Positions 25,154-43,027 of a DNA stretch of 64,000 bases are shown here, piece by piece. Source of the stretch: Clostridiaceae bacterium (GTDB lineage: Bacteria > Bacillota > Clostridia > Saccharofermentanales > Saccharofermentanaceae); assembly GCA_012718915.1 (NCBI GenBank), contig JAAYBI010000078.1, forward strand, positions 1-64,000, read 5' to 3'. Made by a program: the position numbers and the translations under genes. Numbering within the stretch: position 1 is the stretch's first letter; the number at the start of each line of letters is the position of its first letter. The notes beneath the pieces are model-generated. The model did not search any database. It was not told the origin of the DNA and was given only the letters and a program-made list of their open reading frames with translations.

Positions 25154-25156
25154 GTT

Positions 25157-25612
25157 ATGAAGTGCCCTTTTTGCGGACATGATGAAGATCGGGTCATCGA
25201 CTCAAGGCCTGCCGAAGAAGGCGCGGCGATTCGAAGAAGAAGAGAGTGTATCGGCTGTTGCGGCCGCTATACGACATACGAAAAAATCGAATCACTTCCA
25301 CTTCTGGTCATTAAGAAAGACGGGACGCGAGAGCCGTTCTCCAGAGACAAGATTCTCAACGGTCTTTTGAAGGCTTGTGAAAAGAGGCCGGTATCCAATG
25401 ATCAGCTTTACGAGATATTGTCTTTCGTTGAAGCTCGCATTCAGAGTGCGCCAAACAGAGAAATTTCTTCGGGAGACATTGGTGAACTTGTGATGGTGCG
25501 TCTTAAGGATGTTGACGAAGTCGCTTACGTTCGTTTTGCGTCTGTATATCGGCAATTTAAGGATGTTCATTCTTTTATGGAAGAGCTCACGCAAATGCTG
25601 AGCAAGAAGTGA
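25157..25612 (+). CDS. nrdR: Ribonucleotide reductase repressor NrdR
   Basis: NrdR represses ribonucleotide reductase genes when dATP is high. The protein (151 residues) has an N-terminal zinc ribbon with CPFC at 3-6 and CIGC at 31-34, followed by the typical GRYTTYEK, and then an ATP-cone domain (about 47-137, starting [17 protein letters not shown]). It starts 3 bases after ftsZ and is almost certainly cotranscribed with it. In spore formers spoIIGA-sigE-sigG commonly lie between the two genes. Confidence 0.97.
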
Positions 25613-25622
25613 GGTAATTAAG

Positions 25623-26339
25623 ATGAAAAAAGTATTAGTTGTCGATGATGATCCGAATATTGTTGAGGTTCTGAGACTTTACTTTGATAAAGATGGATTT
25701 GCCGTCATTAGTTGTCTTTCAGGGGATCGTGCCGTGGATACTTTCATGGCAGCTAAACCGGACCTTGTCGTTTTAGATCTCATGTTGCCGGGTAAGGATG
25801 GATATGATATTTGTCGGGAAATCAGAAAAACGTCGGATGTGCCGATTATCATGCTCACGGCCAGGACGGATACCCTCGACAAAGTGGTCGGACTTGAATT
25901 AGGTGCTGATGATTATGTACAGAAGCCATTTGAGCCCAAAGAACTTCTTGCACGTGTTAAGGCAGTTCTGCGTCGTGTCGAAAAGAAGGATGACGCCCCT
26001 GTATCATTACCGGAGCAACCGGAAAATGCCGAGGTGGTTCAGTACAGAGGCTTGACAGTTGATAAAGCAAGATATGTCGTATTAGTCGATGAGAAAGAGA
26101 TTGAGATGCCGCCAAAGGAGCTCGAACTTTTATTTTTCCTTGCTTCTCATCCCAATCGAGTATTTACGCGGGAGCAATTGCTTGAGAATGTTTGGGGATA
26201 TGATTTTTACGGAGAGTCACGTACTGTTGACGTACACGTCAAACGCATTCGCGAAAAAATTGAGAGTCCGGACAAGGATGTCAATTGGCAAATTAAGACC
26301 GTATGGGGTGTCGGCTATAAGTTCGAAGCCAACAACTGA
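25623..26339 (+). CDS. OmpR/PhoB-family response regulator
   Basis: A 238-residue DNA-binding response regulator. The receiver domain (1-120) has the acidic pocket DDD at 8-10, the phosphorylation site Asp52 in VVLDLMLPGKDG, Thr in MLTAR and Lys in QKPFEPKELL. The winged-helix domain (about 140-236) ends with the typical VWGVGYKFE. It is followed 23 bases later by a histidine kinase, forming one two-component system. The signal and target genes cannot be told; it resembles general PhoP/YycF-like regulators but I would not assign a name. Confidence 0.93.
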   Translation: MKKVLVVDDDPNIVEVLRLYFDKDGFAVISCLSGDRAVDTFMAAKPDLVVLDLMLPGKDGYDICREIRKTSDVPIIMLTARTDTLDKVVGLELGADDYVQKPFEPKELLARVKAVLRRVEKKDDAPVSLPEQPENAEVVQYRGLTVDKARYVVLVDEKEIEMPPKELELLFFLASHPNRVFTREQLLENVWGYDFYGESRTVDVHVKRIREKIESPDKDVNWQIKTVWGVGYKFEANN

Positions 26340-26362
26340 TGTCGGTAGCGAGCGGGTCATAA

Positions 26363-27883
26363 ATGTCTGATAAAAGCAGCAGTTCGGTATATTTTCGTAC
26401 AGTTTTGTCGTTGGCTTTGGTCACGGTATTTGTATTTTCGGTGCTTTCTTTTGTCTATTTCCAACGTATTTCGGCTTCGATCATTAACACCGAAAAAAAG
26501 AATGTTATGCTTACTGCACGAAATATATCCGGCGGTCTCGGCAGAATTCGCATCGAAGAAAATGTGGATGCCGGTGGCATAGAGTTGTCTTTTAACGAGC
26601 GCAATTTTCTAGAAGCTAATGCGATGTCTCAAAACTGTGTCGTATGGTTGGTTGATACGAACGGTAGAATTGAGTACTCGACATCTTTGCCCAAAGAGGT
26701 TCTGGCAAAACTCGACCAACGTGGGTCGTTTTTTCACCTACCCGATGATTTATTTAAAAATATCGTCAACGCAAATGAAGATCAAGGGTATGTTGCATCC
26801 GGGAACGGCTTGTTTTCGGATCCGAAGTCGGTCTGGGTGACCGCTTCCATAAAGCTTGATCTCTACGGTCAGTTCTTGATTATTCATGAACCGGTCGATG
26901 TTGATAATCAGGCTTTTCAAATGCTGTCAAGTGCGCTCGCGTTACCCCTTTCAATCTCCTTTGTTTTGGCATTAATACTGTTCATGCTGATGACCAGGTC
27001 CATTGTTCGTCCGATTCGATTGCTTTCGGATGTCGCGGGGAGTGTCGCTCGCGGAGATTTAACGCGTAGAATTGATATCGCTGAAGCACCGGGGGACTCT
27101 CCGTTTAAAATATTGATCTCTGACGAAATTACCAACATGGTTCATACCGTAAATAACATGATCGAGCAATTGGAACGACAAGCTTCGGACCGAAGAGTGT
27201 TCATTTCAAGTATAGCTCATGATCTCAGAACTCCGCTAACGTCGATAAATGGTTTTTTAACGGCAATCATGGATGGAACGATTCCGCCGGATCGCTGTAA
27301 TCACTATATGCAAATCATCAAAACTGAGGTTGAGCGCATTCAGAACCTTACCAATATGATGACCGAGGCCACTTCTTTTGGGCAAAGCGGTCAGACAAAT
27401 TACGAAATATTCGATATTAATGAATTGATAAGTGACACATTAACTGCTCTTGAAAATCAACTGTATGACAAAAATCTTGGCGTTCAAGTGGATTTGTTTA
27501 AAGATGATAAGGGACGCTTATTGGCCTCAGCAGAAAGACAGGCAATTATGCGTGTCGTTTATAATCTGTTGGCTAATGCCGTCAAATTTACCCCCAAGGA
27601 CGGAAACATCTCGATCAGTACGTATTATGAACCCAAAACAAATCTCATTTCCGTTTCGGTTGAAGATTCCGGCGAAGGTATACCGGAGGAGCATCGTTCG
27701 CGAGTATTCGACAGCTTCTACAAAATCGATAAATCCCGCACAGAATCCGGTTCCGGTCTCGGACTATATATCTGTAAAGAAATTCTAAAGTCACACAATC
27801 AGGATATTTATGTTAAAACCGGAAAAGAATGGGGAGGAGCGACTTTCGTTTTTACGGTAAGTGGCGCCAATAAGAGGGATTAA
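26363..27883 (+). CDS. Sensor histidine kinase
   Basis: A 506-residue membrane kinase: first membrane segment about 10-30, an extracellular sensor domain of roughly 155 residues, second membrane segment about 187-210, then a HAMP domain with RPIRLLSDVAG. The HisKA domain has the phosphorylated His286 in SIAHDLRTPLTS, and the HATPase domain has NLLANAVKFTP, DSGEGIP and GSGLGLYICKEI. It is paired with the response regulator directly upstream. The ribosome binding site is weak. Overall architecture is like PhoR/WalK but without a PAS domain that I can recognise. Confidence 0.92.
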   Translation: MSDKSSSSVYFRTVLSLALVTVFVFSVLSFVYFQRISASIINTEKKNVMLTARNISGGLGRIRIEENVDAGGIELSFNERNFLEANAMSQNCVVWLVDTNGRIEYSTSLPKEVLAKLDQRGSFFHLPDDLFKNIVNANEDQGYVASGNGLFSDPKSVWVTASIKLDLYGQFLIIHEPVDVDNQAFQMLSSALALPLSISFVLALILFMLMTRSIVRPIRLLSDVAGSVARGDLTRRIDIAEAPGDSPFKILISDEITNMVHTVNNMIEQLERQASDRRVFISSIAHDLRTPLTSINGFLTAIMDGTIPPDRCNHYMQIIKTEVERIQNLTNMMTEATSFGQSGQTNYEIFDINELISDTLTALENQLYDKNLGVQVDLFKDDKGRLLASAERQAIMRVVYNLLANAVKFTPKDGNISISTYYEPKTNLISVSVEDSGEGIPEEHRSRVFDSFYKIDKSRTESGSGLGLYICKEILKSHNQDIYVKTGKEWGGATFVFTVSGANKRD

Positions 27884-27884
27884 G

Positions 27885-28532
27885 ATGTTGTCAAAGGCAA
27901 AAGTTAATATTATTCTGTCCATTCTCGAAGAGATGTATCCGGTGGCTGAGTGTTCTTTAGATTTTGACGGGAACGATTTCCATTTCCTTGTCCGAGCAAT
28001 ACTTTCAGCTCAGTGTACGGATAAACGTGTTAATGAAGTGACAAAAACACTTTTTGATAAATATCCTTCCGTCTCATCTTTTGCCCAAGCGCAACAAGAA
28101 GCTTTAGCGAAGGACATCAAAACTTGCGGCCTTTATAATTCGAAATCAAGAAATATTATTAAGACGTCTCAGATTCTGGAAGAGATGTATGATGGCCAAA
28201 TTCCGATAGAATCGGAAGATCTTGAATCTCTTCCCGGAGTCGGACGAAAAGTAGCTAATCTGATTCGCGGAGAACTCTTTTCGATTCCTGCAGTTGTTGT
28301 GGATACACATTGCATGCGAGTAGCGAAACGACTTGATTTTGCCGATAGTGATCAGCCTTTACGTGTGGAAAAGGACCTGTCGTCTTGCGTACCTAAAGAC
28401 AAATGGATTACACTGGGACATAGATTTGTTGCGCACGGTCGAGCTCTTTGTTCGGCGCGTTCGCCAAAATGCAATTCTTGTGCACTTGAAGAGGTATGTA
28501 AGTATGGGCGTAGCCAAGCAAGAAAGCGATAA
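27885..28532 (+). CDS. nth: Endonuclease III (DNA glycosylase/AP lyase)
   Basis: Nth removes oxidised pyrimidines and cleaves AP sites. The protein (215 residues) has the helix-hairpin-helix LPGVGRKVAN with the catalytic Lys, the catalytic Asp in VVVDTHCMRVAKRL, and a C-terminal [4Fe-4S] cluster of the form C-x6-C-x2-C-x5-C (CSARSPKCNSCALEEVC). I start it at ATG 27885, directly after the kinase stop, because AGAGGGA lies 6 bases upstream. It overlaps recG by 29 bases. Confidence 0.95.
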   Translation: MLSKAKVNIILSILEEMYPVAECSLDFDGNDFHFLVRAILSAQCTDKRVNEVTKTLFDKYPSVSSFAQAQQEALAKDIKTCGLYNSKSRNIIKTSQILEEMYDGQIPIESEDLESLPGVGRKVANLIRGELFSIPAVVVDTHCMRVAKRLDFADSDQPLRVEKDLSSCVPKDKWITLGHRFVAHGRALCSARSPKCNSCALEEVCKYGRSQARKR

Positions 28533-30609
28533 TTCTCACCACCGGGACATACTCAGTCAACCGGTTGGTAAGATATGCAAGTTAACGCCTCATCGTCTCG
28601 GATTATTAGACAGACTGGGTATAGTTACGATATATGATCTTCTCAATCATATACCTTCCCGATACGAAAATTGGACGGATATCAAAGCGGTCGCATCACT
28701 TGAAAATGCCTCGGATCAGGCATTTGAAGCAGAAGTTATTCGAGTTCCTTCGTTACATCGAAAAGGGAAGTTTTCGTCTCTGAGCACCATGTTGTCTGAC
28801 GGTACGGATTCGATTAAGGCCGTCTGGTTCAATCAACCCTATTACAAAGACAAATTACGCAAGGGTGACCGGTATTTGTTTTTCGGCCGAGTGAAAAGAA
28901 TAAACGGCAATTTTGAAGTGATTAACCCGGCCTTCCGACCGGCGGACGAATTTAGTGAATTAACGTATTTGCCGGTATACCCATTAACAAAGGGATTGAC
29001 TCAATCTGCACTTCGAGGATATCTTAAGGCTTGTCTGCCCAAGGTTATTCCAAGCCTTCCCGAATTTCTTCCTCAAGATATTGTACAGTCAGAACGGCTG
29101 ATTGATTCTCAAGAAGCTTACGCTATCATCCATTTTCCTAAAAACGAGTCAGATTTATCGGCGGCTCGGGATCGATTAGCATATGAAGAATTATTTCTGG
29201 TATTAGCAAAGTTTTCTTTGATGAAGCGGAAAAAGGCCGGAAAGAACAGTGCGATTCCGATTCGAATGAGTCGCGATAAGGCGGAGCTTTTCAAGAAGAA
29301 GGTTGAATCACTGCCTTACGAGCTGACAGCGGATCAGAAAAAAGCCATAAATGACATTGTTTCGGACATTTCTTTGAATCGGCCGATGAGCCGTCTGGTG
29401 CAGGGCGATGTCGGATCCGGGAAAACAATCGTCGCCGCACTTGCGATGTACGCTGTTGCGTTGGCAGGTATGCAAAGTATTATGATGGTGCCGACTTCCG
29501 TCCTGGCAGAACAGCATTACCGCAATTTCAAGGCTCTGTTCTCGAACGATGATTTCTCTGTCGATTTAATGCTTGGAAGTACTTCCGCTCATGAAAAAAG
29601 AGCGATCCGGGAGCGTCTTTCTACAGGTAAAACATTGATATTGATTGGTACACATGCGGTGTTATCCGAGCAGAATGAATTCATGGCACCGGCGCTTCTT
29701 GTGACGGACGAGCAGCATCGTTTTGGTGTGCGCCAGCGTACGTTATTACTACAGAGAAGCGGAAGAGACATCCACACCTTGGTGATGTCCGCCACACCTA
29801 TTCCGCGCACGCTGGCTTTGATAGTGTATGCAGATCTCGATTTATCCAATATTACGACACCTCCTGCCGGGCGCCCAAAAATTGAAACTTACTTAGCCGG
29901 AGAGTCGGATGAGGATCGCGTATACGATATTGTTATGCGGCAATTAATTGAAGGACGCCAAGTTTACTACGTATGTCCGTCTATTGAATCCGAAGAAGAC
30001 AGCGACAAAGTCTCCGCTGTTGAGCTTTACGATAATTTGTCGAAGGGTCGCTTTTCAGGTTACCGTGTCGGCCTATTACACGGAGCTCTGAAACCAGACG
30101 AAAAAGAACGTGTCATGCATGATTTTCTGGAGCATAAGGTTGACCTGCTTATATGTACGACTGTGGTTGAAGTCGGTGTAGATAATCCGAACGCGTCACT
30201 GATTGTTATCGAAAATGCGGAGTGTTACGGATTGGCAACGCTGCATCAATTGAGAGGCCGCGTGGGAAGAGGATCCTATCGGTCGGTATGTATTCTCAAA
30301 AGCAATGCAGAATCAGATAAAATCAAGGAGCGGCTGCGTTTTGTGTGTGCGAACTCCGATGGATTTGCACTGGCTCAGAAGGATCTGGAGACAAGAGGTC
30401 CGGGGGATTTCTTCGGCACTCGTCAACATGGGTTGCCGACGCTTCGTTTTTCTGATTATCATACCGATATGCCTAAGATGCAACGCGTGGCGAAGCAAGT
30501 TGAAGCATATATCGATCAGATTGCGGATTCAAACCACAGATCATCAGAAGAATTAGCGACGCTTTTTGAACTTCGATACGGCATATTCTGTAGCCAGTCG
30601 TCTATTTAG
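28504..30609 (+). CDS. recG: ATP-dependent DNA helicase RecG
   Basis: RecG remodels stalled replication forks and Holliday junctions. The protein of about 701 residues has an N-terminal wedge/OB domain, then helicase motifs: GDVGSGKTIVAALAM (Walker A), DEQHRFGVRQR (motif II), SATPIPRT (motif III), and TTVVEVGVDNPNA with QLRGRVGRG (motifs V and VI). The open frame extends further left, but ATG 28504 has GAGG 9 bases upstream and gives the expected length. Coupling to nth groups two repair genes. Confidence 0.95.
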   Translation: MGVAKQESDNSHHRDILSQPVGKICKLTPHRLGLLDRLGIVTIYDLLNHIPSRYENWTDIKAVASLENASDQAFEAEVIRVPSLHRKGKFSSLSTMLSDGTDSIKAVWFNQPYYKDKLRKGDRYLFFGRVKRINGNFEVINPAFRPADEFSELTYLPVYPLTKGLTQSALRGYLKACLPKVIPSLPEFLPQDIVQSERLIDSQEAYAIIHFPKNESDLSAARDRLAYEELFLVLAKFSLMKRKKAGKNSAIPIRMSRDKAELFKKKVESLPYELTADQKKAINDIVSDISLNRPMSRLVQGDVGSGKTIVAALAMYAVALAGMQSIMMVPTSVLAEQHYRNFKALFSNDDFSVDLMLGSTSAHEKRAIRERLSTGKTLILIGTHAVLSEQNEFMAPALLVTDEQHRFGVRQRTLLLQRSGRDIHTLVMSATPIPRTLALIVYADLDLSNITTPPAGRPKIETYLAGESDEDRVYDIVMRQLIEGRQVYYVCPSIESEEDSDKVSAVELYDNLSKGRFSGYRVGLLHGALKPDEKERVMHDFLEHKVDLLICTTVVEVGVDNPNASLIVIENAECYGLATLHQLRGRVGRGSYRSVCILKSNAESDKIKERLRFVCANSDGFALAQKDLETRGPGDFFGTRQHGLPTLRFSDYHTDMPKMQRVAKQVEAYIDQIADSNHRSSEELATLFELRYGIFCSQSSI

Positions 30610-30636
30610 TGCATAATATATACAGCGGAGGGATTC

Positions 30637-31197
30637 ATGCCAAGAATTATTGCCGGTGATAATAAAGGGATGATTTTGAATGCGCCCAAAGGCGATCGAA
30701 CTCGTCCGACTACGGATAAAGTAAAAGAAGCAATATTTTCAATTATTCAAGTCCGCGTACCGAATGCCTCATTTTTGGATTTGTTTGCCGGCAGTGGGCA
30801 GATGGGGCTTGAGGCTTTGAGCCGGGGGGCGTCTAAGGCCGTATTTGTTGAAAAGAATCGACAGAGTATTTATGTTATTCAAGAAAATATAGCCAAGGCC
30901 GGAAGAATACAAGAATCGGAGATCGTTGCCGGAGATGTCGCATCTGCGCTGCGTCGAATTGCGGACAGAAATGAGTCATTTGATATCATTTTTATGGATC
31001 CGCCTTACAAAGAAGCCAAGAAGATGTTGGACATCGTCGCAGATCAAGTATGCAAGAATAGTCTCTTGTCCGAAGATGGCGTTTTAATCATTGAGCATGA
31101 TTCTGATGATATATTTGATGAAACTGTAATCAATTTGACATTGAGCAGACGTTGTAAGTACGGTAGTACAATGCTAACATTTTATCAGATATTATGA
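30637..31197 (+). CDS. rsmD: 16S rRNA m2G966 methyltransferase RsmD
   Basis: RsmD methylates G966 of 16S rRNA. The 186-residue protein starts MPRIIAGDNKGMIL, followed by RPTTDKVKEAIFSI. The SAM site is FLDLFAGSGQMGLEALSRGA and the catalytic DPPY motif is in IIFMDPPYKEA. GGAGGG precedes the ATG. It is followed by coaD, a very common pairing. Confidence 0.96.
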   Translation: MPRIIAGDNKGMILNAPKGDRTRPTTDKVKEAIFSIIQVRVPNASFLDLFAGSGQMGLEALSRGASKAVFVEKNRQSIYVIQENIAKAGRIQESEIVAGDVASALRRIADRNESFDIIFMDPPYKEAKKMLDIVADQVCKNSLLSEDGVLIIEHDSDDIFDETVINLTLSRRCKYGSTMLTFYQIL

Positions 31198-31218
31198 TGT
31201 TGGGGGTATTCTGCTACT

Positions 31219-31713
31219 TTGAAGACGTTTGTGTTTCCCGGAAGTTTTGACCCGTTTTCATTGGGTCATCTTGATATCGCTAAACGAGCGACGAAGCTTT
31301 GTGATCGTTTGATTGTCGCGGTAATGAATAATAGCGTCAAGCATCCGACATTCACTTCTCAAGAACGTAAATATATGGCAGAGAAGTGTCTTGAAGGTAC
31401 TCCCGGAATCGAAGTGATTTCACACGACTCTCTTTTGGTTGATTTGTTTGTTAAAGTAGATGCGGCGGCGGTCGTCAGAGGACTGAGAAGCGAATCAGAT
31501 TTTCGGAATGAGGCGGAAATGGCCGCAGCCAACAAACTTTTGTTGCCGGAATATGACGTTATTCTATTGCCGTGTAGCGCGGATCTTGCATTTACAAGTT
31601 CGACCATCATTAAGGAAGTGGCGTTTTACGGTGGAAATATTTCTAAAATGGTTGCGCCGAGTATCGTTGATTTCGTTACTGCTGCAATCTCAGAAAGAAG
31701 CAAAAGGGATTAA
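31219..31713 (+). CDS. coaD: Phosphopantetheine adenylyltransferase CoaD
   Basis: CoaD makes dephospho-CoA from phosphopantetheine and ATP. The 164-residue protein begins KTFVFPGSFDPFSLGHLDIA (nucleotidyltransferase H-x-G-H-like motif as SLGH) and has AAVVRGLRSESDFRNEAEMA and SSTIIKEVAFYGG. The start is TTG at 31219 behind a GGGGG stretch about 12 bases upstream, a rather long spacing; no better start is seen. It overlaps the RBS region of the next gene. Confidence 0.95.
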   Translation: MKTFVFPGSFDPFSLGHLDIAKRATKLCDRLIVAVMNNSVKHPTFTSQERKYMAEKCLEGTPGIEVISHDSLLVDLFVKVDAAAVVRGLRSESDFRNEAEMAAANKLLLPEYDVILLPCSADLAFTSSTIIKEVAFYGGNISKMVAPSIVDFVTAAISERSKRD

Positions 31714-31727
31714 TGGAGGGGAACAGT

Positions 31728-32201
31728 ATGCCAGATATGCCACGTCAGTATAGATCCGGCGAAGGAGATATTATTGATTTGCTGGATCAGCTTCAATCGA
31801 CAGTATCGGAAGCAAAGGGCTTGCCATTTTCTGACAATTGTATTGTAGACAGACAAGACGTTTTGTACTGGATTAACCAGATTCGAGATGCACTTCCCGA
31901 AGAAGTTCGTCAAGCAAGATGGATTGTTGAGCAGAACCGACAAGTTGTTGCGAGCGCTCGACAAAAGGCTGAGAGTATTCTTCGCGAGTCCGAACAACAA
32001 TCGGCAATGATGATTGATGAACACGAGATAACATTGCAGGCTCGAGCTGTGGCTGATAAGATGATTGAAGAGGCGAATCAGACCTCTTGGGAAATGCGGG
32101 TTGCATCGACAGAATATGCAAGACAGCGCCTCTCAGAAATAGAGAATCATTTAACAGAAATGCTCGTTAAGGTTCAGAAAAACAAGAAGGAGCTCAAGTA
32201 G
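31728..32201 (+). CDS. Conserved coiled-coil protein downstream of coaD
   Basis: This 157-residue soluble protein has GEGDIIDLLDQLQSTV near the N-terminus, a middle motif VDRQDVLYWINQIRDALPEE, and a long C-terminal helix rich in Gln, Glu, Ala and Arg that should form a coiled coil, like F0-ATPase subunit b. Proteins of this type follow coaD in many Clostridia and are often annotated simply as ATPase; no nucleotide-binding motif is visible. I start it at ATG 31728 because GGAGGGG (31715-31721) lies 6 bases upstream. Function unknown. Confidence 0.75.
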   Translation: MPDMPRQYRSGEGDIIDLLDQLQSTVSEAKGLPFSDNCIVDRQDVLYWINQIRDALPEEVRQARWIVEQNRQVVASARQKAESILRESEQQSAMMIDEHEITLQARAVADKMIEEANQTSWEMRVASTEYARQRLSEIENHLTEMLVKVQKNKKELK

Positions 32202-32213
32202 CTCCTTTTCTTC
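32187..32213 (+). terminator. Terminator overlapping the end of the coiled-coil gene
   Basis: The 8-bp stem AAGGAGCT/AGCTCCTT (32187-32194 with 32200-32207), loop CAAGT, is followed by TTCTTCTT. The stop codon lies in the loop. It separates the coaD operon from the ATPase/TOPRIM pair. Confidence 0.65.
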
Positions 32214-32229
32214 TTAGGAGGTGAGCTCA

Positions 32230-33438
32230 TTGCTTCTCGGTATCAAAATAAACAATTACTCCATATTTCTCGAGGATAAAATCGGCGCTTTGATCGAAGA
32301 TTTTCAATCAGGGCTTGTCAAAGATACATCTGCACTTTCTTCAGGCGTATCGATTGCATTCCCGCTTTCGGGAATCAATGCATTAATCGGTCGCAACCAG
32401 ACCGGAAAAAGTCTATTCCTCGATATTCTATCCTTCGTTTCGGATTCGACGGTAAAGGGTTGTGCGGAGGCATCTGTCATAAGGGGTCGAAAGGGTTTTT
32501 CTAATTTGCCCAATGCAGCGCTTGAGCCAATTGAATTTGAATTGTGCTTTGAGGTCAAACTAAAAGATTCTCCATACAACTTATCTGCGGTGCTTGTGCG
32601 TTACTTATTCTCGCTAACATCCGATGCGCATGGCCGTCCATCATATAGCCATGAACAGGTCGACGTATTTTCGGGAGAAGATTATTCATTGCTGAAAACG
32701 GTATTAGACATTAATAACGGTAAGGGTGTCTTTCGTTTTCGAGATCAAGAAAGTGAAGCTGAAATATCGGATTCAAGATTTTCTGCCTTGCGGACGTATG
32801 GCAGCATGCCGCAATGTCCTGTTTTGAATCGCCTCTATCATGAGATCTCTCGTTGGTATTTTTGCAAATTCTCATCGCCGAGTAATGGCAACGGCACGCG
32901 GACAGCGGTTGCCCCGGGTGGGCACAAACATCTTGATAGTTATGGCACAAACGTTCAGAATGTTCTCGATTATATTCGAATAGAAAACCCGGAGCATTTT
33001 GAGCGATTGACTGCAAGGATTTATAGTAAGATTCCGAGTGTCGGTAAATTAAAAGACAAACTTCCTGATAGCTTCAGGCAAAGTCCTAACAAACTCTTTT
33101 TGTACTTGTTGCTACTTGAGGACCCAAGGCCAAGACCGATGATATGTATCGAGACACCGGATATGGGATTGTATCACGATATGGTAGATGTATTGTCTGC
33201 AGAATTGCGTGCATATTCAATTCGGCACCCGGAGTGTCAAGTAATTTTCACAACACACAACCCGTACATTTTAGAATCGATTGCTCCTGAAGAGGTTTGG
33301 ATTTTTAAAAGAGATATTGCGGAACAGGAGAGTGCGGTTGAAGTTACACCTGCCGCAGCCGATCCTTTGGTTGTTGAAATGTATGAACAGGGCGTCGGAA
33401 TGGGCGCGATTTGGTACTCCGGACATTTTGATGATTGA
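32230..33438 (+). CDS. ABC-type AAA ATPase (AAA_21-like), first gene of an ATPase/TOPRIM pair
   Basis: A 402-residue ATPase. Walker A is GRNQTGKS (about residues 54-61). Far downstream come a Walker B-like strand ICIETPDMGL (Glu308) and the H-loop FTTHNPYIL (His343). A Walker A and B that flank a long middle region, with a final TTHNP motif, mark the OLD/RecF-like AAA_21 group of stand-alone ABC ATPases, seen in many defence systems. A perfect AGGAGGTG lies 6 bases before the TTG at 32230; the GTG at 32221 overlaps it. The stop codon is followed 32 bases later by a TOPRIM-like gene. I cannot assign it to a named system. Confidence 0.8.
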   Translation: MLLGIKINNYSIFLEDKIGALIEDFQSGLVKDTSALSSGVSIAFPLSGINALIGRNQTGKSLFLDILSFVSDSTVKGCAEASVIRGRKGFSNLPNAALEPIEFELCFEVKLKDSPYNLSAVLVRYLFSLTSDAHGRPSYSHEQVDVFSGEDYSLLKTVLDINNGKGVFRFRDQESEAEISDSRFSALRTYGSMPQCPVLNRLYHEISRWYFCKFSSPSNGNGTRTAVAPGGHKHLDSYGTNVQNVLDYIRIENPEHFERLTARIYSKIPSVGKLKDKLPDSFRQSPNKLFLYLLLLEDPRPRPMICIETPDMGLYHDMVDVLSAELRAYSIRHPECQVIFTTHNPYILESIAPEEVWIFKRDIAEQESAVEVTPAAADPLVVEMYEQGVGMGAIWYSGHFDD

Positions 33439-33470
33439 CGGCAACAGATGACAATAATTCGAAGGTGTGT

Positions 33471-34142
33471 ATGAGATTTGAAGTATTAACCGAAGATCGA
33501 TCGGGCGGAATGGTGCTTGATCAAATTCTTCCGAAAATGATTCGAAAATATGACATGGATGTGGATGTACACATACGTCCGCATCGTGGATTGGGCGATT
33601 GGCCGTCCAATGACAGCGAAGATCCGCAACCTTACGCTTCCGGTCTGCTTGACTTGCTTCCGGCAAAGTTGCGTGCTTATGAACACGTCTATGCCGGTAC
33701 GGAGACGATTGTTATTGTTGTCATGGATTCTGACAGTTATTCTCCTGCGCAGATATTTAATCGACTGCGAAGTTTATGTCAACGAAATGCACCAAACCTT
33801 GTATATGTCATAGGTGTTTGTGTTGAAGAAATGGAGTCCTGGTTGCTCGGTGACAAGTCGGCGGTTCTTGCTGCATATCCTGATGCGGATGTTTCGGCAA
33901 TCAATCAATATGAGCAAGATAGTATTTGCGGGACTTGGGAGACACTCTGTCGTGTGATACTGAAAGATCGTGCTGATCGAACAATCCGAATCGGTTATCC
34001 TGCGGTAGGGCAATTGAAGAGCGAATGGGCAGAGAATATTGCGGTACATATGAATCCGGAAGTGAATAAATCACCGAGCTTTGACCGCTTTTCTCATGCA
34101 GTCGATTATGCGGTTAAGAAGATAAAAGGATTTCATCGATGA
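33471..34142 (+). CDS. DUF4276-like protein with TOPRIM-type acidic motifs
   Basis: A 223-residue protein starting MRFEVLTEDRSGGMVLDQIL. The Glu at residue 8 (LTEDRSG) and the D-x-D at 86-88 (VVMDSDSYS) fit the metal-binding motifs of TOPRIM folds. A later GVCVEEMESWLLGD is typical of DUF4276, a family often found next to AAA_21 ATPases. I prefer ATG 33471 (AAGG 5 bases upstream) to the upstream TTG 33435. Together with the ATPase it resembles split OLD-type or PARIS-type ATPase/TOPRIM pairs, so a nuclease or nucleotide-acting effector is likely but not shown. It overlaps hemW by 4 bases. Confidence 0.7.
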   Translation: MRFEVLTEDRSGGMVLDQILPKMIRKYDMDVDVHIRPHRGLGDWPSNDSEDPQPYASGLLDLLPAKLRAYEHVYAGTETIVIVVMDSDSYSPAQIFNRLRSLCQRNAPNLVYVIGVCVEEMESWLLGDKSAVLAAYPDADVSAINQYEQDSICGTWETLCRVILKDRADRTIRIGYPAVGQLKSEWAENIAVHMNPEVNKSPSFDRFSHAVDYAVKKIKGFHR

Positions 34143-35293
34143 GCTGTATTCGCTCGGCCTATATCCACATTCCGTTTTGTGTAAGTAAATGCCTTTATTG
34201 TGATTTTACTTCCTTTTCGGCGAGCGAATCACAAATAGACCGTTACGTCGAAGCGCTGATTTTGGAAATGCGGCGTTTTGCGGAATTCGAGTCAATTCAA
34301 TCAGCCGGAGTTCTTCCGGCGCTTAAAACACTTTATATCGGTGGAGGCACCCCGTCGTTGCTTTCGAATAATCATATTTTTCGTATTGTCGATACGGTAA
34401 GGGCGCTCTTTGGTTTTGTGCCTGATCCTGAAATTACCGTTGAAATGAACCCGAATACGTCCGGTATAGATTTTCTGAATTCATTTATCGAGGCAGGCGG
34501 AAACAGAGTGTCGCTCGGCGTTCAATCGCTCGACGAAGACTTGCTGGCCAGTATGGGCAGAGCACATACTGCCCAAGAAGCTCTTGACGCGATTGGGCTT
34601 ATACAGCAAGCAGGTATTCTGAATATCTCATGTGATTTGATAATCGGACTTCCTAACCAAAAAATAGATCAAGTCATTTCTGACATTGATATTCTCGTCC
34701 AAAAAGGCATCCGACATATTTCTGTATACTCGTTGTCTCTTGAAGAAGGAACCGTGTTTGCGCAGAGGTACGCCGAATCGATTGAACGTTTGATGCCGGA
34801 GGACTATGAGAGAAAAATGTATCATGCGGTTCGAAATCACTTGATATCTTTAGGTTACCGACATTATGAAATCAGTAATTTTGCCATTCCCGGTTTTGAG
34901 AGTCGTCACAACAGTATGTACTGGAGTGCTTCGGAATATTATGGTTTCGGATTGGCGGCACATTCATACGTCCACTCGAATCGAATCGGCCACATCGAAG
35001 ATTTGGATACATATTTATCTAATGTAACGGGCAATCCGGAGGCTCTTGTATCCGAATGCGTTTCAATTGATGTGGAAGAAGAGCAAAAAGAATTCTTTTT
35101 ACTTGGGCTGAGAATGATTGATGGTGTAAGTGTCAATCATTTCATCGAACGTTTTGGGAAGTTACCGGAAGACCTTTTTCGGATACTTGAAAAGCATGTT
35201 TCAGATGGTCTGCTCGAGCATCAATTCGACCGCTATTATCTTACCCTTAAAGGTCTCGATTTTGCTAATCTCGTTTTCAGAGATTTTGTTTGA
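34139..35293 (+). CDS. hemW: Radical SAM heme chaperone HemW
   Basis: HemW is a heme-binding radical SAM protein related to coproporphyrinogen dehydrogenase HemN. The 384-residue product starts with YIHIPFCVSKCLYCDF, giving the C-x3-C-x2-C cluster at residues 14-21. YIGGGTPSLL, NRVSLGVQS and GLPNQ follow, then the HemN C-terminal domain. It normally sits directly upstream of hrcA, as here; the start overlaps the TOPRIM-like gene (ATGA). Its stop codon lies within the -35 box of the heat-shock promoter. Confidence 0.93.
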   Translation: MSCIRSAYIHIPFCVSKCLYCDFTSFSASESQIDRYVEALILEMRRFAEFESIQSAGVLPALKTLYIGGGTPSLLSNNHIFRIVDTVRALFGFVPDPEITVEMNPNTSGIDFLNSFIEAGGNRVSLGVQSLDEDLLASMGRAHTAQEALDAIGLIQQAGILNISCDLIIGLPNQKIDQVISDIDILVQKGIRHISVYSLSLEEGTVFAQRYAESIERLMPEDYERKMYHAVRNHLISLGYRHYEISNFAIPGFESRHNSMYWSASEYYGFGLAAHSYVHSNRIGHIEDLDTYLSNVTGNPEALVSECVSIDVEEEQKEFFLLGLRMIDGVSVNHFIERFGKLPEDLFRILEKHVSDGLLEHQFDRYYLTLKGLDFANLVFRDFV

Positions 35294-35318
35294 CATTCTC
35301 TGACTATGATGGTAAAGT
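35290..35318 (+). promoter_or_regulatory. Heat-shock operon promoter
   Basis: TTGACA (35290-35295), a 17-base spacer and TAAAGT (35313-35318) form a sigma-A promoter. The -35 box overlaps the end of hemW. Predicted transcription starts within the CIRCE element. Confidence 0.85.
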
Positions 35319-35322
35319 CATC

Positions 35323-35349
35323 TTAGCACTCGAAGGGCTTGAGTGCTAA
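35323..35349 (+). promoter_or_regulatory. CIRCE operator (HrcA binding site)
   Basis: TTAGCACTC (35323-35331), nine bases, GAGTGCTAA (35341-35349): a perfect CIRCE element. HrcA, encoded by the first gene downstream, binds it and represses the operon until heat or unfolded protein titrates GroEL. Confidence 0.98.
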
Positions 35350-35372
35350 GATAATTGCAGGGAGATGATGGC

Positions 35373-36437
35373 ATGACGCTGGAGGGAAGAAAAAAACATA
35401 TTCTTCAAGCGATTGTTGACGATTACATCGAGACAGCCGAGCCGGTTGCATCGAAGTCTTTGTTGTCGCGCCATCCGTTTAATTTAAGTTCAGCGACACT
35501 TCGAAACGAAATGTCTGACTTGGAACAGTTGGGCTATTTAGAGCAACCTCATACCTCAGCCGGCAGAGTTCCTTCAGATAAGGGATATAGAGAATATGTC
35601 GATTCTCTTATGAGAATTGATCAATTATCCGATGTCCAGGCGGATGAGATCCGACAAAGAATCAGCACGAGTTTTAGCGAGCTCACGCAATTACTCAAGA
35701 ATGCGTCGAGCGCTCTGTCTGAGCAAACCGGATATGTGTCCGTTGCGTTGACCCCTCGGCTCAGGAGCAGTTATCTCAAACAGCTCAAGATGATGATGAT
35801 TGAGCCCGGAAAGGTACTGGTCGTTGTTGTTTTGTCTGCCGGAGTAGTTAAAGATAAATTGGTTCGTATCCCGGATTACCTTACTGCGGAACAGTTGTTT
35901 GAAGTATCGACTGCAATTGAGCAAGGTCTGTGTGGATTGTCATTAGAAGATATTACGTTGGTTACGATAACATCGGCGGTTAAGGATACCCCCATTCCGG
36001 ATTCCATACTTAATCAGGTCCTTTTCGAGGCATATACTGCGATTAAGCAAGCAGACCATCTGGAATTATATATAGACGGCTCGCATCGCTTGCTGTCTTT
36101 GCCGGAGTTTAGGGATGTAGACCGGGCCAAAAATGTATTTGACACTTTATCAAGAGACGGCATGGTTGCGGGCTACTTGGATGAGCTGTCCGGTCGGAAC
36201 GGCCCCGATGGCACGTATATGATTCGGATTGGCCAAGAGATCACGCTCCAAGGACTCTCGGATTGTAGTTTTGTTACCACCACCTACAATGTAGATGATA
36301 AAATAGTCGGGAATATCGGTGTAATCGGACCTAAGAGAATGGACTATTCCAAAGTGGTCTCACAGATGAATTTTGTGAGAGTGCTTATTGATAAGCACTT
36401 AAAAAATGACAATAACAGAATGGAGGATATTGGCTAA
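35373..36437 (+). CDS. hrcA: Heat-inducible transcription repressor HrcA
   Basis: HrcA represses class I heat-shock genes through CIRCE. The protein (354 residues) has an N-terminal winged helix (LQAIVDDYIETAEPVASKSL, SSATLRNEMSDLEQLGYLEQ, TSAGRVPSDKGYREYVD) and a C-terminal GAF-like dimerisation domain. I place the start at ATG 35373, 8 bases after GGGAG; the open frame begins earlier at a TTG without a suitable site. grpE begins immediately after its stop codon. Confidence 0.97.
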   Translation: MTLEGRKKHILQAIVDDYIETAEPVASKSLLSRHPFNLSSATLRNEMSDLEQLGYLEQPHTSAGRVPSDKGYREYVDSLMRIDQLSDVQADEIRQRISTSFSELTQLLKNASSALSEQTGYVSVALTPRLRSSYLKQLKMMMIEPGKVLVVVVLSAGVVKDKLVRIPDYLTAEQLFEVSTAIEQGLCGLSLEDITLVTITSAVKDTPIPDSILNQVLFEAYTAIKQADHLELYIDGSHRLLSLPEFRDVDRAKNVFDTLSRDGMVAGYLDELSGRNGPDGTYMIRIGQEITLQGLSDCSFVTTTYNVDDKIVGNIGVIGPKRMDYSKVVSQMNFVRVLIDKHLKNDNNRMEDIG

Positions 36438-36992
36438 ATGGCTAAATCTAAGAACAACAAAGCAGCTCGGGAATCAGAAATCGAAAAGGATCGGGAGGAA
36501 GCACAATTCGAAGCGGAAGCAATGGTTTCTGAGCAGCAGGAGGAAACGGTGTCCGCCGAAGAATTCAATACTCTTTCAGATCAACACATCCGATTGCTGG
36601 CAGAGTATGATAATTATCGAAAACGTACGGTCAAGGAAAAAGAGTCTCTTTATGCTGAGGCGCTGGCAGAAATTGCAAAAGAATTTCTCCCGGTTGTCGA
36701 CAATATTGAGCGTGCGATTTGTCATTCTAAGAACATATCAGATACGACGGCAGCAAAAGTTGCCGAAGGTATCGATATGATTTATAGACAGGTACAGGAC
36801 GTATTTAATAAGCTCGGTATTGAGCCGATTGACTGCGAAGAAGGATCTGATTTTGATCCGGAACTTCACGAGGCGGTTATGCATGTTGAAGATGAGGAAT
36901 TCGGGGAGCAATGTGTTGTTCAGGTTTTTCAAAAAGGCTATAAAGCCAAAGACAAAATTATTCGTCACACAGTCGTTAAGGTAGCAAACTAA
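36438..36992 (+). CDS. grpE: Nucleotide exchange factor GrpE
   Basis: GrpE releases ADP from DnaK. The 184-residue protein has an acidic N-terminal tail, a long dimerising helix ([20 protein letters not shown]) and a beta domain with the GrpE signature at the C-terminus ([20 protein letters not shown]). It starts directly after hrcA, with GGAGG about 13 bases upstream. Instead of dnaK, the next gene is clpP. Confidence 0.96.
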
Positions 36993-37015
36993 ATTATGCA
37001 AGAGGAGAACTATTT

Positions 37016-37621
37016 ATGAGACATGAAAGCATTCAATCCAGCTTGGTTCCGACCGTCATTGAATCGACAAACCGTGGTGAAAGAGCCTACGATATTTTTT
37101 CCAGACTACTTAAGGAAAGAATTATTATTCTCTCCGAAGAGGTTAATCACATTACTGCGAGTTTGATTACCGCTCAGCTCCTTTTTCTCGAAGCTGAGGA
37201 TCCGGACAAAGATATTCAGTTTTATATCAACAGTCCGGGCGGTTCGGTCTCCGACGGCTTGATGATTTACGACACAATGCAACACATTAAGCCGGATGTC
37301 CAGACCATCGGAATGGGTATGGCAGCATCGATGGGTTCATTTCTGTTGGCAGCCGGTGCGAAGGGTAAGCGGTTTATTTTGCCCAATGCCGAAGTCATGA
37401 TTCACCAGCCATCGAGCGGGACACAAGGCCAAGCCAGTGACATTGAGATTGCGGCGAAGCACATTATCAAGATGAGAGAAAAGCTCAATCGACTGATGTC
37501 GGAAATGACCGGGCAGAAGATTGAGGTTATCGAAAAAGATATGGACAGAGACAATTGGATGACGGCGGAAGAGGCTATGAAATATGGCATCGTTGATCAC
37601 ATAATGACAAAAAGAATCTAA
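37016..37621 (+). CDS. clpP: ATP-dependent Clp protease proteolytic subunit ClpP
   Basis: ClpP is the serine protease chamber used by ClpX and ClpC. Catalytic residues are visible: Ser105 in [11 protein letters not shown], His130 in [10 protein letters not shown] and Asp179 in DRDNW. The 201-residue length is typical, with no extra domains. AGAGGAG precedes the ATG. The position between grpE and dnaK is unusual: clpP normally stands alone or next to clpX. Here it should be under HrcA/CIRCE control. Confidence 0.97.
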
Positions 37622-37648
37622 GAAACAGAGAATTTGGAGGATATTAAT

Positions 37649-39484
37649 ATGGCTAAAGTAATTGGAATTGATCTTGGAACTACTAACTCTTGCGTTGCGG
37701 TTATGGAGGGCGGTGAAGCCGTCGTTATCCCGAATCCGGAAGGCAACAGAACGACACCGTCTGTCGTTGCATTTTCGAAAACCGGCGAACGTCTAATCGG
37801 GCAGGTTGCTAAGCGTCAGGCTGTGACCAATCCGGATCGTACCGTTCAATCCATCAAAAGAGAGATGGGTACGAATTTTAAAGTCAGCATTGATGATAAG
37901 CAATACTCGCCGCAGGAAATTTCTGCGATGCTTTTAACTAAGCTCAAGCAAGATGCTGAGGCGTATTTGGGACAAACTGTAACGCAGGCCGTTATTACGG
38001 TTCCGGCATATTTCTCTGATGCCCAGCGTCAGGCAACCAAGGATGCAGGTAAGATTGCGGGACTTGAGGTTCTTCGTATCATCAACGAACCGACAGCTGC
38101 TTCTTTGGCTTACGGTCTCGACAAAGAAAGCGATCAGAAAATTCTGGTTTTTGACTTGGGCGGCGGTACATTCGACGTATCAATTCTCGAAATCGGTGAC
38201 GGCGTTTTTGAAGTCCTTGCAACAGCCGGTAACAATCGACTTGGCGGAGATGACTTTGACAACAGAATCGTGGATTTCCTCGTTGATTCTTTCAAAAAAG
38301 ATCAAGGCGTCGACCTTCGTGCAGATAAAATGGCGATGCAAAGACTTCGTGAAGCAGCGGAAAAAGCAAAGATTGAGCTATCCGGAGTCACTACGACCAA
38401 TATCAATTTGGCATATATCACTGCTGACGCAACGGGTCCGAAGCATATGGATATGAATTTGACGCGTGCGAAGTTTGATGAGTTGACCGGAGATCTTGTT
38501 GAGAAGACCATGGAGCCGTTAAAGCGTGCCATGAGTGATTCCGGTGTATCTCCGAGCGATATTCACAAGATTCTTTTGGTCGGCGGATCGACACGTATCC
38601 CGGCGGTCCAAGACGCAGTCAAGAAGTATTTCGGAAAAGAGCCTTTTAAGGGGATTAACCCGGACGAGTGCGTCGCGGTGGGAGCTGCAATCCAAGCCGC
38701 AGTATTAACCGGTGAGGTTAAGGGCTTGCTTCTCTTAGATGTTACCCCTCTTTCGCTGGGAATCGAGACGCAGGGCGGCGTATTCACCAAGATGATTGAG
38801 AGAAATACAACGATTCCTTCCAAGAAGAGTCAGGTTTTCTCGACCGCAGCGGACGGACAGACACAAGTTGATGTTCACGTTCTCCAAGGCGAGCGTGAAA
38901 TGGCAGCCTACAATAAGACGCTCGGTAATTTCATACTTGATGGTATCGCACCGGCGCCCAGAGGAGTACCGCAAATTGAGGTCACTTTTGACATCGACGC
39001 AAATGGTATCGTTCACGTCACGGCGAAGGACATGGGTACAGGTCGCGAGCAAAAGATTACGATCACGGCTTCTACTAATATGACTGAAGAAGAGATCCAG
39101 AAAGCCGTCAAAGATGCAGAGCTTCATGCGGCTGAAGATTCAAAGCGCAAAGAAGAAATCGAGATCAAGAACCATGCAGAGTCGTCGGTCTACCAGACTG
39201 AAAAGACCCTGACCGATCTTGCAGATAAGATTGACGCTGCAGACCGTGCCCCGGTTGATGAGGCTCTCGAGCGTCTTAAAGCAGCGATTGCCGCTAACAA
39301 TTATGACGATATGAAAAAAGAGACTGAGGCGGTTCAACAGGCTTTCTACAAGATCAGCGAAAAGATTTATTCTCAGGGCAATCCGCAGGGCGGAGCCGGC
39401 CAGCCGAATCCTGAAGATTTCACCGGATACTCGGATCAGAACCCGGATTCGGAAGGATTTAAGAACGCCGGCGGCGATTTCTAA
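37649..39484 (+). CDS. dnaK: Chaperone DnaK (Hsp70)
   Basis: DnaK is the central Hsp70 chaperone. The 611-residue protein starts [19 protein letters not shown], has the ATPase signatures [14 protein letters not shown] and [14 protein letters not shown], a substrate-binding domain and a helical lid. Its Gly/Asn/Pro-rich tail is followed by residues GFKNAGGDF rather than the usual EEVD-like end, as in other Firmicutes. ATG 37649 lies 8 bases after TTGGAGG. A hairpin separates it from dnaJ. Confidence 0.99.
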
Positions 39485-39506
39485 ACACACAATAATATTC
39501 GATTCG

Positions 39507-39545
39507 GCATAAATGCGGATTATTCCGCATTTATGCTGTTTTGAT
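39507..39545 (+). terminator. Intercistronic hairpin between dnaK and dnaJ
   Basis: A perfect 13-bp stem (39507-39519 with 39524-39536, loop TTAT) is followed by TGTTTTG. It resembles a leaky terminator or an RNA-stabilising hairpin and would set dnaK expression above that of dnaJ and prmA. Confidence 0.65.
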
Positions 39546-39573
39546 CTTAATACGAATTGAGGAGGGCACGTCT

Positions 39574-40713
39574 TTGGCAGAGCAGAAGCGTGACTATTAT
39601 GAGGTTCTGGGCGTAGGTAAAAGTGCGACGGATGATGACTTAAAAAAAGCCTATAGAAAACTTGCGAAAAAATACCATCCGGATCTCAATCCAAATGACA
39701 AGGAAGCCGAAGCAAAATTTAAAGAGGCTAATGAGGCCTATGCGGTACTGTCTGATGGAGATAAACGGCGACAGTATGATCAATTCGGACATGCCGGTAT
39801 GGATGGACAAGGATTTTCCGGATTCGGTGGTTTTAATGCAGCCGATATTGATTTGGGAGATCTTTTCGGTTCGTTTTTCGGGGGTGCTTTTGGCGGCGGC
39901 GGACGTCGTCGCAGCGGTCCTGTAAAAGGCGCGAACCTTAAGTACGGCATGACGCTTGATTTCATGGAGGCGGCATTCGGTGTCGAAAAGACTATCAATT
40001 TCAGCAAAGAAGATGTTTGTGAAGTCTGCAGCGGCGCCGGCACGGCGGCAGGCTCTTCTCCGGAGACGTGTCCGACCTGTAAAGGCGCCGGAAGAATTCA
40101 GCAACAGACTCAAACACTTTTTGGAATCACAATGGTTACGAAGGATTGTCCGGCTTGCGGCGGCAGAGGGACGATTATTCGAAATCCATGTTCTTCTTGC
40201 GGTGGACGTGGGCGGAAGGTTAAGAAAAAGGATTTGAAAATCAAAGTACCGGCAGGTGTCGACACCGGAGATATGCTTCCGATTCCCGGAGAGGGAGAGC
40301 CCGGTCAGCGCGGCGGCCCATACGGTGATTTGTACATTCAGATCAAAGTGAAGCCTCATCCGGTATTTGAGCGCAAAGGATACCACACATACTGCGATGT
40401 TCCGATTACTTATGCACAGGCTGCGTTGGGTGCAGATATAGATTTGCCGACGATTGACGGCAAAGTTACCACGCACATTAAGGAAGGAACACAGCCATTT
40501 GATACAATCTCACTGCGAGGTAAGGGTATTCCGATCAAAAATCGTCCCGGTAACAGAGGCGATCACATATGTCGATTTATACTTGAAGTTCCTTTGCATC
40601 TTAATGAAGATCAAAAAGCCGTTCTCAAGCAATTTGAGTCGACGCTCAACGAAAAAAATTACCAGAAGAGAAGCGGTTTTTTCAATAAAGTGAAGGATAT
40701 TTTTGGTATTTGA
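39574..40713 (+). CDS. dnaJ: Co-chaperone DnaJ (Hsp40)
   Basis: DnaJ delivers substrates to DnaK and stimulates its ATPase. The protein (379 residues) has the J domain ([23 protein letters not shown] motif in KKYHPDLNP), a Gly/Phe-rich region, four CxxCxGxG zinc-finger repeats (about residues 147-210) and a C-terminal client-binding domain. The start is TTG 39574, 7 bases after GGAGGG; the frame open further upstream has no ribosome binding site. Confidence 0.97.
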
Positions 40714-40714
40714 T

Positions 40715-41734
40715 ATGCAATGGGAAGAGTACACGATTATTACGGATCACGATGCTTCAGAAGTCATATGCGAACTTTTAGCTCAATGGGGTGCAGTCGG
40801 TTTGGCGGTTACCGACAAAGAGGACATTCGACTTATTCTTGAGGATCCAAACTCCTTATCCTATGCAGATGAGGGATTTCTGGAATCACAAGAAGACGAA
40901 GTGACTGTTCGGGCATATTTCCCCAGATTGAATGACATGGTATTCGTCCGCAACGTTGAGGACGATTTTGAGTTAAATTTTGACAGTCGACTATATGACT
41001 ACAATAGCGGTATTCCGATGGAACCGGAGTCTTTAATGCAAAAAATGTCCGACCGTTTTTCGAAGATATCTGAATTCCTTCCGGTCGGTTCCTTACAGAT
41101 CTCTCATATCACGGTCCATCAAGAAGACTGGGAAAATAACTGGAAGCAGGACTATAAACGCTTTGTCTTGTCAGAACGGATCGCCGTTTGTCCGACTTGG
41201 GAAAGAAATATTTCACCAAATGAGACGGGCATGATCGAGATATATTTAGATCCGGGTTCTGCTTTTGGTACGGGAACGCATGAGACGACAATGATGTGTG
41301 CTCGTTTTTTGGACCGTTTAGTAACTCAAGACAGTTGTGTTTTGGATTTAGGTTGCGGCTCAGGAATTCTCTCCATCGTCGCTTCAAAACTGGGTGCTTC
41401 TCAGGTTGAGGCAATCGATATCGATCCTCAAGCAGTGGTTGTCGCTGATCAGAATGTTCGAGATAATAACGTAACCGTAAATTGTCATTCCGGCGAACTT
41501 AAAGACGCACACAGGCAAAAATACTCATTAGTCGTAGCCAACATTATTGCGGATGTACTGGTTGATCTTTCAACGGTAATCGGAGATTATCTTGAAGATG
41601 GCGGCAAAATCATTGTGAGCGGCATTATATCCGGCAAACGTCAATTAGTATTGGATGCGTTTCTGGCTAATCAGTTTACTGTTTACGATGAGACGGAGCT
41701 CAATGACTGGCATGCGATTGTTTTTGCTCGGTGA
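40715..41734 (+). CDS. prmA: Ribosomal protein L11 methyltransferase PrmA
   Basis: PrmA trimethylates ribosomal protein L11. The 339-residue protein has an N-terminal substrate domain and a SAM domain with GSAFGTGTHETTMMC, VLDLGCGSGILSIVASKLG and VVANIIADVL. The start could be ATG 40715, one base after the dnaJ stop, or TTG 40703, which has AAGGA 5 bases upstream; I use the ATG because it matches the family's N-terminus. prmA is the usual last gene of the dnaJ operon. Its 3' end overlaps mutY on the other strand by 35 bases. Confidence 0.94.
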   Translation: MQWEEYTIITDHDASEVICELLAQWGAVGLAVTDKEDIRLILEDPNSLSYADEGFLESQEDEVTVRAYFPRLNDMVFVRNVEDDFELNFDSRLYDYNSGIPMEPESLMQKMSDRFSKISEFLPVGSLQISHITVHQEDWENNWKQDYKRFVLSERIAVCPTWERNISPNETGMIEIYLDPGSAFGTGTHETTMMCARFLDRLVTQDSCVLDLGCGSGILSIVASKLGASQVEAIDIDPQAVVVADQNVRDNNVTVNCHSGELKDAHRQKYSLVVANIIADVLVDLSTVIGDYLEDGGKIIVSGIISGKRQLVLDAFLANQFTVYDETELNDWHAIVFAR

Positions 41735-42863: not shown

Positions 42864-42998
42864 TAATATTGTCCCGTCTTAAGAGATTCTTGTTACTTGT
42901 AGGCAGTATATCATAAGCTTTTTGACTTTACCGCAAGCACTCAATTAATCAGTTTAGCTTTTCGGGAAAATAGATAAAGATGAGTCATTTTGAAATTA

Positions 42999-43027
42999 TT
43001 GACTTTCATTCTTTCCTGTAGCATACT
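42999..43027 (+). promoter_or_regulatory. Promoter of the T-box-trpB transcript
   Basis: TTGACT (42999-43004), 17-base spacer, CATACT (43022-43027). Predicted start near 43034, at the 5' edge of the T-box leader. The 42864-42998 stretch between mutY and this promoter is AT-rich and shows nothing else. Confidence 0.65.

Follow-up and report, generated by a model that had tools for sequence, protein, structure and literature searches.

Two genes resembling an anti-phage system lie directly 5′ of the housekeeping gene hemW in a 64,000-nucleotide stretch of DNA from a Clostridiaceae bacterium (contig JAAYBI010000078.1; this whole stretch is referred to below as the window). The locus raises the question of which family the pair belongs to, and whether it is held beside hemW as a defence system or for some other cellular job. 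A preliminary description of the DNA had drawn attention to its likeness to split ATPase/nuclease systems and to the linkage of a defence-like pair with a housekeeping gene, and both observations hold.

Organization of the locus

The two genes, termed A and B here, were identified from the list of open reading frames and by direct reading. The features of the locus are as follows.

31713–32201, + strand: DivIVA/coiled-coil-like gene (open reading frame; weak DivIVA model match, E 4.5e-4), conserved to the left of the pair within the window's family (f1)
32187–32207, + strand: terminator-like hairpin, AAGGAGCT-CAAGT-AGCTCCTT followed by TTCTTCTT (pattern scan, reported on the − strand, and RNA fold)
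32216–32223, + strand: ribosome-binding site of gene A, AGGAGGTG (direct reading)
32230–33438, + strand: gene A, OLD/AAA_21-like ABC ATPase of the HEC-01A lineage, 402 aa, TTG start (profiles, alignment, structure model)
33471–34142, + strand: gene B, DUF4276/HEC-01B protein, 223 aa, predicted TOPRIM-like metal-dependent nuclease (profiles, alignment, structure model)
34139–35293, + strand: hemW, radical SAM heme chaperone (TIGR00539, E 6e-84, above cut-off)
35323–35349, + strand: CIRCE element (exact match, 0 expected by chance)

As had been noticed, gene A possesses its own ribosome-binding site, separated from the TTG at 32230 by a 6-nt spacer. The statement that gene A follows a terminator was borne out in part: the hairpin has a predicted folding energy of −15 kcal/mol (z −2.4), but it straddles the 3′ end of the divIVA-like gene, and a pattern scan detected no promoter-like site between the hairpin and gene A. 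The mechanical reading frame of gene B begins at TTG 33435. Because most of the relatives begin at the methionine encoded by ATG 33471, gene B is best started there, and the numbering of E8 and D86/D88 in the resulting protein agrees with that used previously. Coupling of gene B to hemW was confirmed, in that the stop codon of the former and the start codon of the latter share the 4-nt ATGA at 34139–34142. Open frames of approximately 635 aa with one stop were considered as potential A-B fusions and were rejected, since they resolved into separate A and B ORFs. At least 76 genomes share the reading frames and motifs of both genes, so that the ORFs do not represent chance occurrences.

The CIRCE element marks the start of a separate hrcA-grpE-clpP-dnaK-dnaJ unit, and the A-B-hemW genes are, therefore, probably situated outside the heat-shock operon; they probably constitute their own unit between housekeeping operons. 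The location of clpP inside an hrcA-dnaK cluster, with a perfect CIRCE upstream, looks unusual. The neighbours of A-B within 7.5 kb in the window are housekeeping genes. No mobility genes were found beside the pair, and no structured RNA was detected in an Rfam scan of window positions 25000–43000.

Family and properties of the two proteins

Gene A and gene B gave full-length matches, in adjacent genes, to the PADLOC models HEC-01A (E 5e-62) and HEC-01B (E 3.4e-63), respectively. HEC-01 (Hma-embedded candidate 1 of PADLOC) is a candidate defence system composed of an AAA ATPase and a DUF4276 protein; a search of the literature on DUF4276 and HEC-01 returned nothing relevant. As judged from the profile matches, the pair is a member of the HEC-01 lineage, and the earlier opinion that it could not be placed in a named system is superseded. 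Mobile relatives on prophages and plasmids share the two-gene plan as well as both protein models. The window's clade differs from them in that it is fixed beside hemW in one order and vertically inherited, and has mostly lost the ABC signature and the catalytic Glu of the ATPase; none of its members was seen on mobile DNA, or in a mobile or defence-island setting.

Comparison with other ATPase/nuclease systems is also informative. The pair shares with PARIS (AriA-AriB, a split class 4 OLD system) the plan of an ATPase gene followed by a TOPRIM-type effector gene, and gene A gave weak scores with AriA models. In contrast, gene B matched no AriB model up to E 1, DUF4435 was not found in the window's genome, and the signature and Walker B motifs of gene A are degenerate. 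PARIS, the likeness to which had been raised at the outset, was rejected as the identity of the pair on the first two of these grounds. Gabija GajA resembles gene A in its OLD ATPase fold (Foldseek E 9.5e-10) and in a probable loss of hydrolysis with retention of nucleotide binding. In Gabija, however, the ATPase and TOPRIM domains are fused and the protein is paired with the UvrD-like helicase GajB, whereas here the genes are separate, there is no helicase, and the gene after B is hemW. Gene A also matched the AbiLi model of the AbiL system (E 7.7e-13), but the second gene is of the DUF4276/HEC-01B type and no AbiLii match was found.

The assignment of gene A as an AAA_21/OLD-like ATPase is upheld by its match to Pfam AAA_21 (E 1.6e-16) and by the structure model (pLDDT 88.6), for which the best PDB match in Foldseek was 6p74, Ts OLD (E 9.5e-12); further matches were to GajA, retron Eco8 and SMC/Rad50 heads. 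Of the motifs attributed to gene A, the Walker A (IGRNQTGKS) and the H-loop (TTHNPYIL) stand. The Walker B-like stretch (ICIETPDMGL) does so by half: Thr occupies the place after the acidic residue where the catalytic Glu is expected (IETPD). The signature position reads RQSP, and with both of these elements lost, an intact ABC ATPase is not supported for gene A. About 20 residues preceding the signature are also missing. In the core set, the Walker A residues G54, G59 and K60 are present in 76 of 76 proteins and the H-loop H343 in 75 of 76. The gene A protein at locus L079 (genome G094) has Tyr in place of the H-loop His (TTYNP), which indicates further wear of the ATP site in that lineage.

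It is apparent that the mobile relatives differ in this regard. The signature SDGT and the catalytic Glu (EEPE or EESE) were each observed in 15 of 15 sequences of the mobile comparison set, in which distant same-phylum genomes stand beside relatives from known mobile settings. The latter are plasmid-borne in Pseudomonas (a conjugative plasmid), Meiothermus (within a type I restriction cluster) and cyanobacteria; further settings are a P2-like prophage of a Rahnella plasmid record, a phage scaffold and viral contigs. Of 118 hemW-linked core A proteins, those of genomes G086 and G092 alone retain SDGT, and these two members are still intact; the catalytic Glu is retained in 11, all from families f2 or f3; no member from the window's family has either, and intermediate forms exist (for example, TSGS with EEPD). 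In a tree of A and B combined, G086 and G092 branch apart from the rest of the core clade (support 99). A tree of B alone, which leaves out the trait's own columns, does not reject a single degenerate clade (p-AU 0.15), nor does it clearly place the intact forms at its base. On the latter tree, the ATPase may equally well have degenerated once or several times.

That gene B is DUF4276-like was substantiated at the level of the family. The single sequence scored below the 30.2 cut-off of Pfam DUF4276 (PF14103; 22.4 bits, E 1.7e-4), and alignment of the gene B relatives with the DUF4276 alignment (hhalign) gave a probability of 99.45% (E 4e-22). Residues E8, D86, D88, E119, E120 and E122 show no variation across the core set, and three viral relatives share them as well. 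In the AlphaFold2 model (pLDDT 90.8), which has an alternating beta/alpha core, E8 follows strand 1 (residues 2–7), the DSD at 86–88 follows strand 3 (residues 79–85) and the EExE follows strand 4. A Glu after strand 1 and a DxD after strand 3 of such a core is the TOPRIM arrangement. The TOPRIM label proposed for gene B thus agrees with the order of the motifs and the predicted topology, but structure searches did not add to it: Foldseek produced no significant match in PDB or BFVD. The hhalign comparison with the OLD TOPRIM was not significant, and the short stretch that it aligned is the DxD motif. The one match with E<0.01 of the B profile to PDB sequences, the 109-residue chain H12, was uninformative (residues 161–223 alone, E 0.005). 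On motifs and predicted topology, then, gene B is probably a TOPRIM protein, and its conserved acidic residues and family suggest a metal-dependent nuclease. A role for gene B as a substitute for RNase M5 was considered and rejected, as rnmV is missing both with and without the pair: the rnmV model (TIGR00334) scored above cut-off in none of 96 genomes of the order, while the same search was positive in Bacillus subtilis.

Distribution, synteny and inheritance

Gene B was found in 76 of 98 genomes of relatives and, over the whole order, in 137 of 188. We take the order to be Saccharofermentanales (GTDB); the relatives include Saccharofermentans, Mageeibacillus, Fastidiosipila and other gut, rumen and digester Clostridia. 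In the window's family, 108 of 115 genomes (counted from the table) have the gene, and the seven lacking it are all 74–86% complete. A class-wide draw contained 13 B-positive genomes, all of them from this order; the approximately 375 genomes drawn from elsewhere in the class were without gene B. In a draw from the phylum, seven genomes besides that of the window gave matches, all distant. A pattern-based viral scan returned only 35–37% relatives and no member of the core clade.

The pair is nearly always present as a single copy. Two B copies were observed in the assemblies G054 (contigs C39 and C10) and G832 (C7 and C73). In G054, hemW beside one of the copies is nearly identical to that of G030, another species, which makes mixed binning likely.

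The gene order in the window's family is RR-HK-nth-recG-rsmD-coaD-divIVA-A-B-hemW, often followed by hrcA-grpE-clpP-dnaK-dnaJ-prmA. In families f2 to f4, the left neighbours are instead genes for an M28 peptidase, NfeD and SPFH/band-7, and A-B-hemW are still together. This M28-NfeD-SPFH group (L103:3203-6196 and its equivalents in f2–f4) lies immediately 5′ of A-B, or of hemW where A-B is missing, and was not observed in the window's family. The choice posed at the outset, between a defence island and a constant position next to hemW, was resolved by this survey: among 75 loci for which all three genes could be positioned, gene B adjoins hemW in 74, with overlaps of mostly 1–8 nt. In the exception, L072 (G056), hemW lies 6 kb downstream of B, which is about the only break of the A-B-hemW link in the survey. 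At one locus beyond these 75 (L104), hemW is inverted yet adjacent.

Genomes without the pair have a clean empty site, in which SPFH or M28 is joined directly to hemW. The interior of a 73-kb contig of G007 has divIVA, a short gap containing ATGCTTCTCGGCAT, and hemW in succession; ATGCTTCTCGGCAT resembles the codons with which gene A of the window opens, which is suggestive of a deletion scar.

In the A+B tree, the hemW-linked proteins group in a single clade (support 100) to the exclusion of nine mobile relatives. The families are largely recovered, f1 and f4 each as one group, and a tree of hemW and chaperone genes contains closely similar families; at least four changes in presence or absence are needed. 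Pairwise dN/dS values for A and B ranged from 0.01 to 0.22, similar to or below those for hemW in most pairs, and are quantitative for close pairs alone, since dS is saturated in the wider ones. Taken together, the trees and substitution rates show A-B to be vertically inherited and under purifying selection. As several lineages lack the pair, it is not essential for the order; the number of presence/absence changes and the clean empty sites show that it is dispensable, as might be expected of a defence gene and of a conditional housekeeping gene alike.

Proposed domestication and its alternatives

The suggestion that the pair might be fixed for maintenance or have a housekeeping function is strongly favoured by the order-wide synteny, vertical inheritance and purifying selection. 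Because of its fixation, its translational coupling to hemW and its absence from mobile DNA, the pair probably has a standing cellular job as its main one. It is somewhat more probable than not that A-B descends from a mobile defence pair of the HEC-01 type and has been domesticated, mainly for such a job. Under this hypothesis, a single acquisition, dating to the base of the order or close to it, would have lodged the pair directly upstream of hemW, where it would have remained single-copy and vertically inherited. The retention of the nucleotide pocket, the missing hydrolysis parts and the full conservation of the nuclease-like partner suggest that gene A is a nucleotide-loaded holder of gene B. 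The gene A protein would bind nucleotide without efficient hydrolysis and serve as a loaded scaffold or switch; the gene B protein, a putative metal-dependent nuclease, would cut nucleic acid once the bound state of A changes, through nucleotide loss or a signal from a partner. The main job would be nucleic-acid surveillance, processing or a stress response, rather than horizontally traded phage defence. Mechanistic models for such holding, by analogy, may be found in PARIS, where AriB is sequestered by AriA until triggered (PMC12409363), and in GajA, where hydrolysis has likely been lost and nucleotide binding retained (PMC12796447).

A precedent from the Archaea is Cran1, a class 5 OLD ATPase-nuclease of the Sulfolobales that is order-wide, vertically inherited and without an apparent defence role, has an active ATPase and could not be deleted (PMC12796447). 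Cran1 and the pair described here are both order-wide, vertical OLD-type ATPase/nucleases outside the defence pool; the latter differs in its split genes, its DUF4276 partner, its degenerate ATPase and its dispensability at the scale of the order. The chances appear about even that the order has made a phage-defence ATPase/nuclease pair into permanent core machinery, with the ATPase as a nucleotide-holding regulator of a live nuclease, that is, a split-gene bacterial counterpart of Cran1.

Counting against domestication are the dispensability of the pair, the HEC-01 label assigned by PADLOC, the lack of a significant PDB or viral fold match for gene B, and the position of the intact forms in the B-only tree. 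The principal alternative, which is tenable and distinctly less probable, is that A-B is an abortive-infection-type anti-phage system that has become chromosomally fixed in the order. Nucleotide-locked A would repress B until nucleotide depletion by a phage, or a phage protein, freed B to cut host or phage nucleic acid. Membership in HEC-01, the AbiL- and AriA-like scores of the ATPase, the settings of relatives (P2-like prophage, conjugative plasmid, type I restriction cluster), and the dispensability of the pair in several lineages are all consistent with resident immunity, as is the fact that GajA, a true defence ATPase, likely dispenses with hydrolysis and uses nucleotide sensing (PMC12796447). 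The absence of turnover and of second loci, the vertical inheritance, the strong purifying selection and the near-universality in the family are, however, atypical of defence genes, and the neighbours are housekeeping genes. Domestication is favoured over resident immunity, although the two are not cleanly separable.

Decay of a former defence pair, its ATPase failing first and its genes kept by their operon position, would account for the degenerate motifs, the losses from several lineages and the possible remnant of A's first codons in G007, but is improbable: it is largely refuted by selection, the dN/dS values being low for both genes, the frames open in nearly all genomes, and the B residues and Walker A invariant over order-level divergence. 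A recent chance insertion of an ordinary mobile HEC-01 pair beside hemW in this genome, with which the PADLOC matches would agree, is highly improbable and is refuted by the same position in four families, the single clade with family-level congruence, and the lack of mobility genes alongside.

Defence genes are expected to turn over, whereas A-B is fixed over a whole order. For the majority of genomes in this order of the gut, rumen and digesters, what surveys of the PADLOC type tally as a 'defence system' may be a core gene pair. The change from a mobile pair with an intact ATPase to a resident pair with a degenerate one can be read in living sequences, which include intact, intermediate and degenerate forms. 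A-B would provide a direct test case for whether immune nucleases become enzymes of cell physiology.
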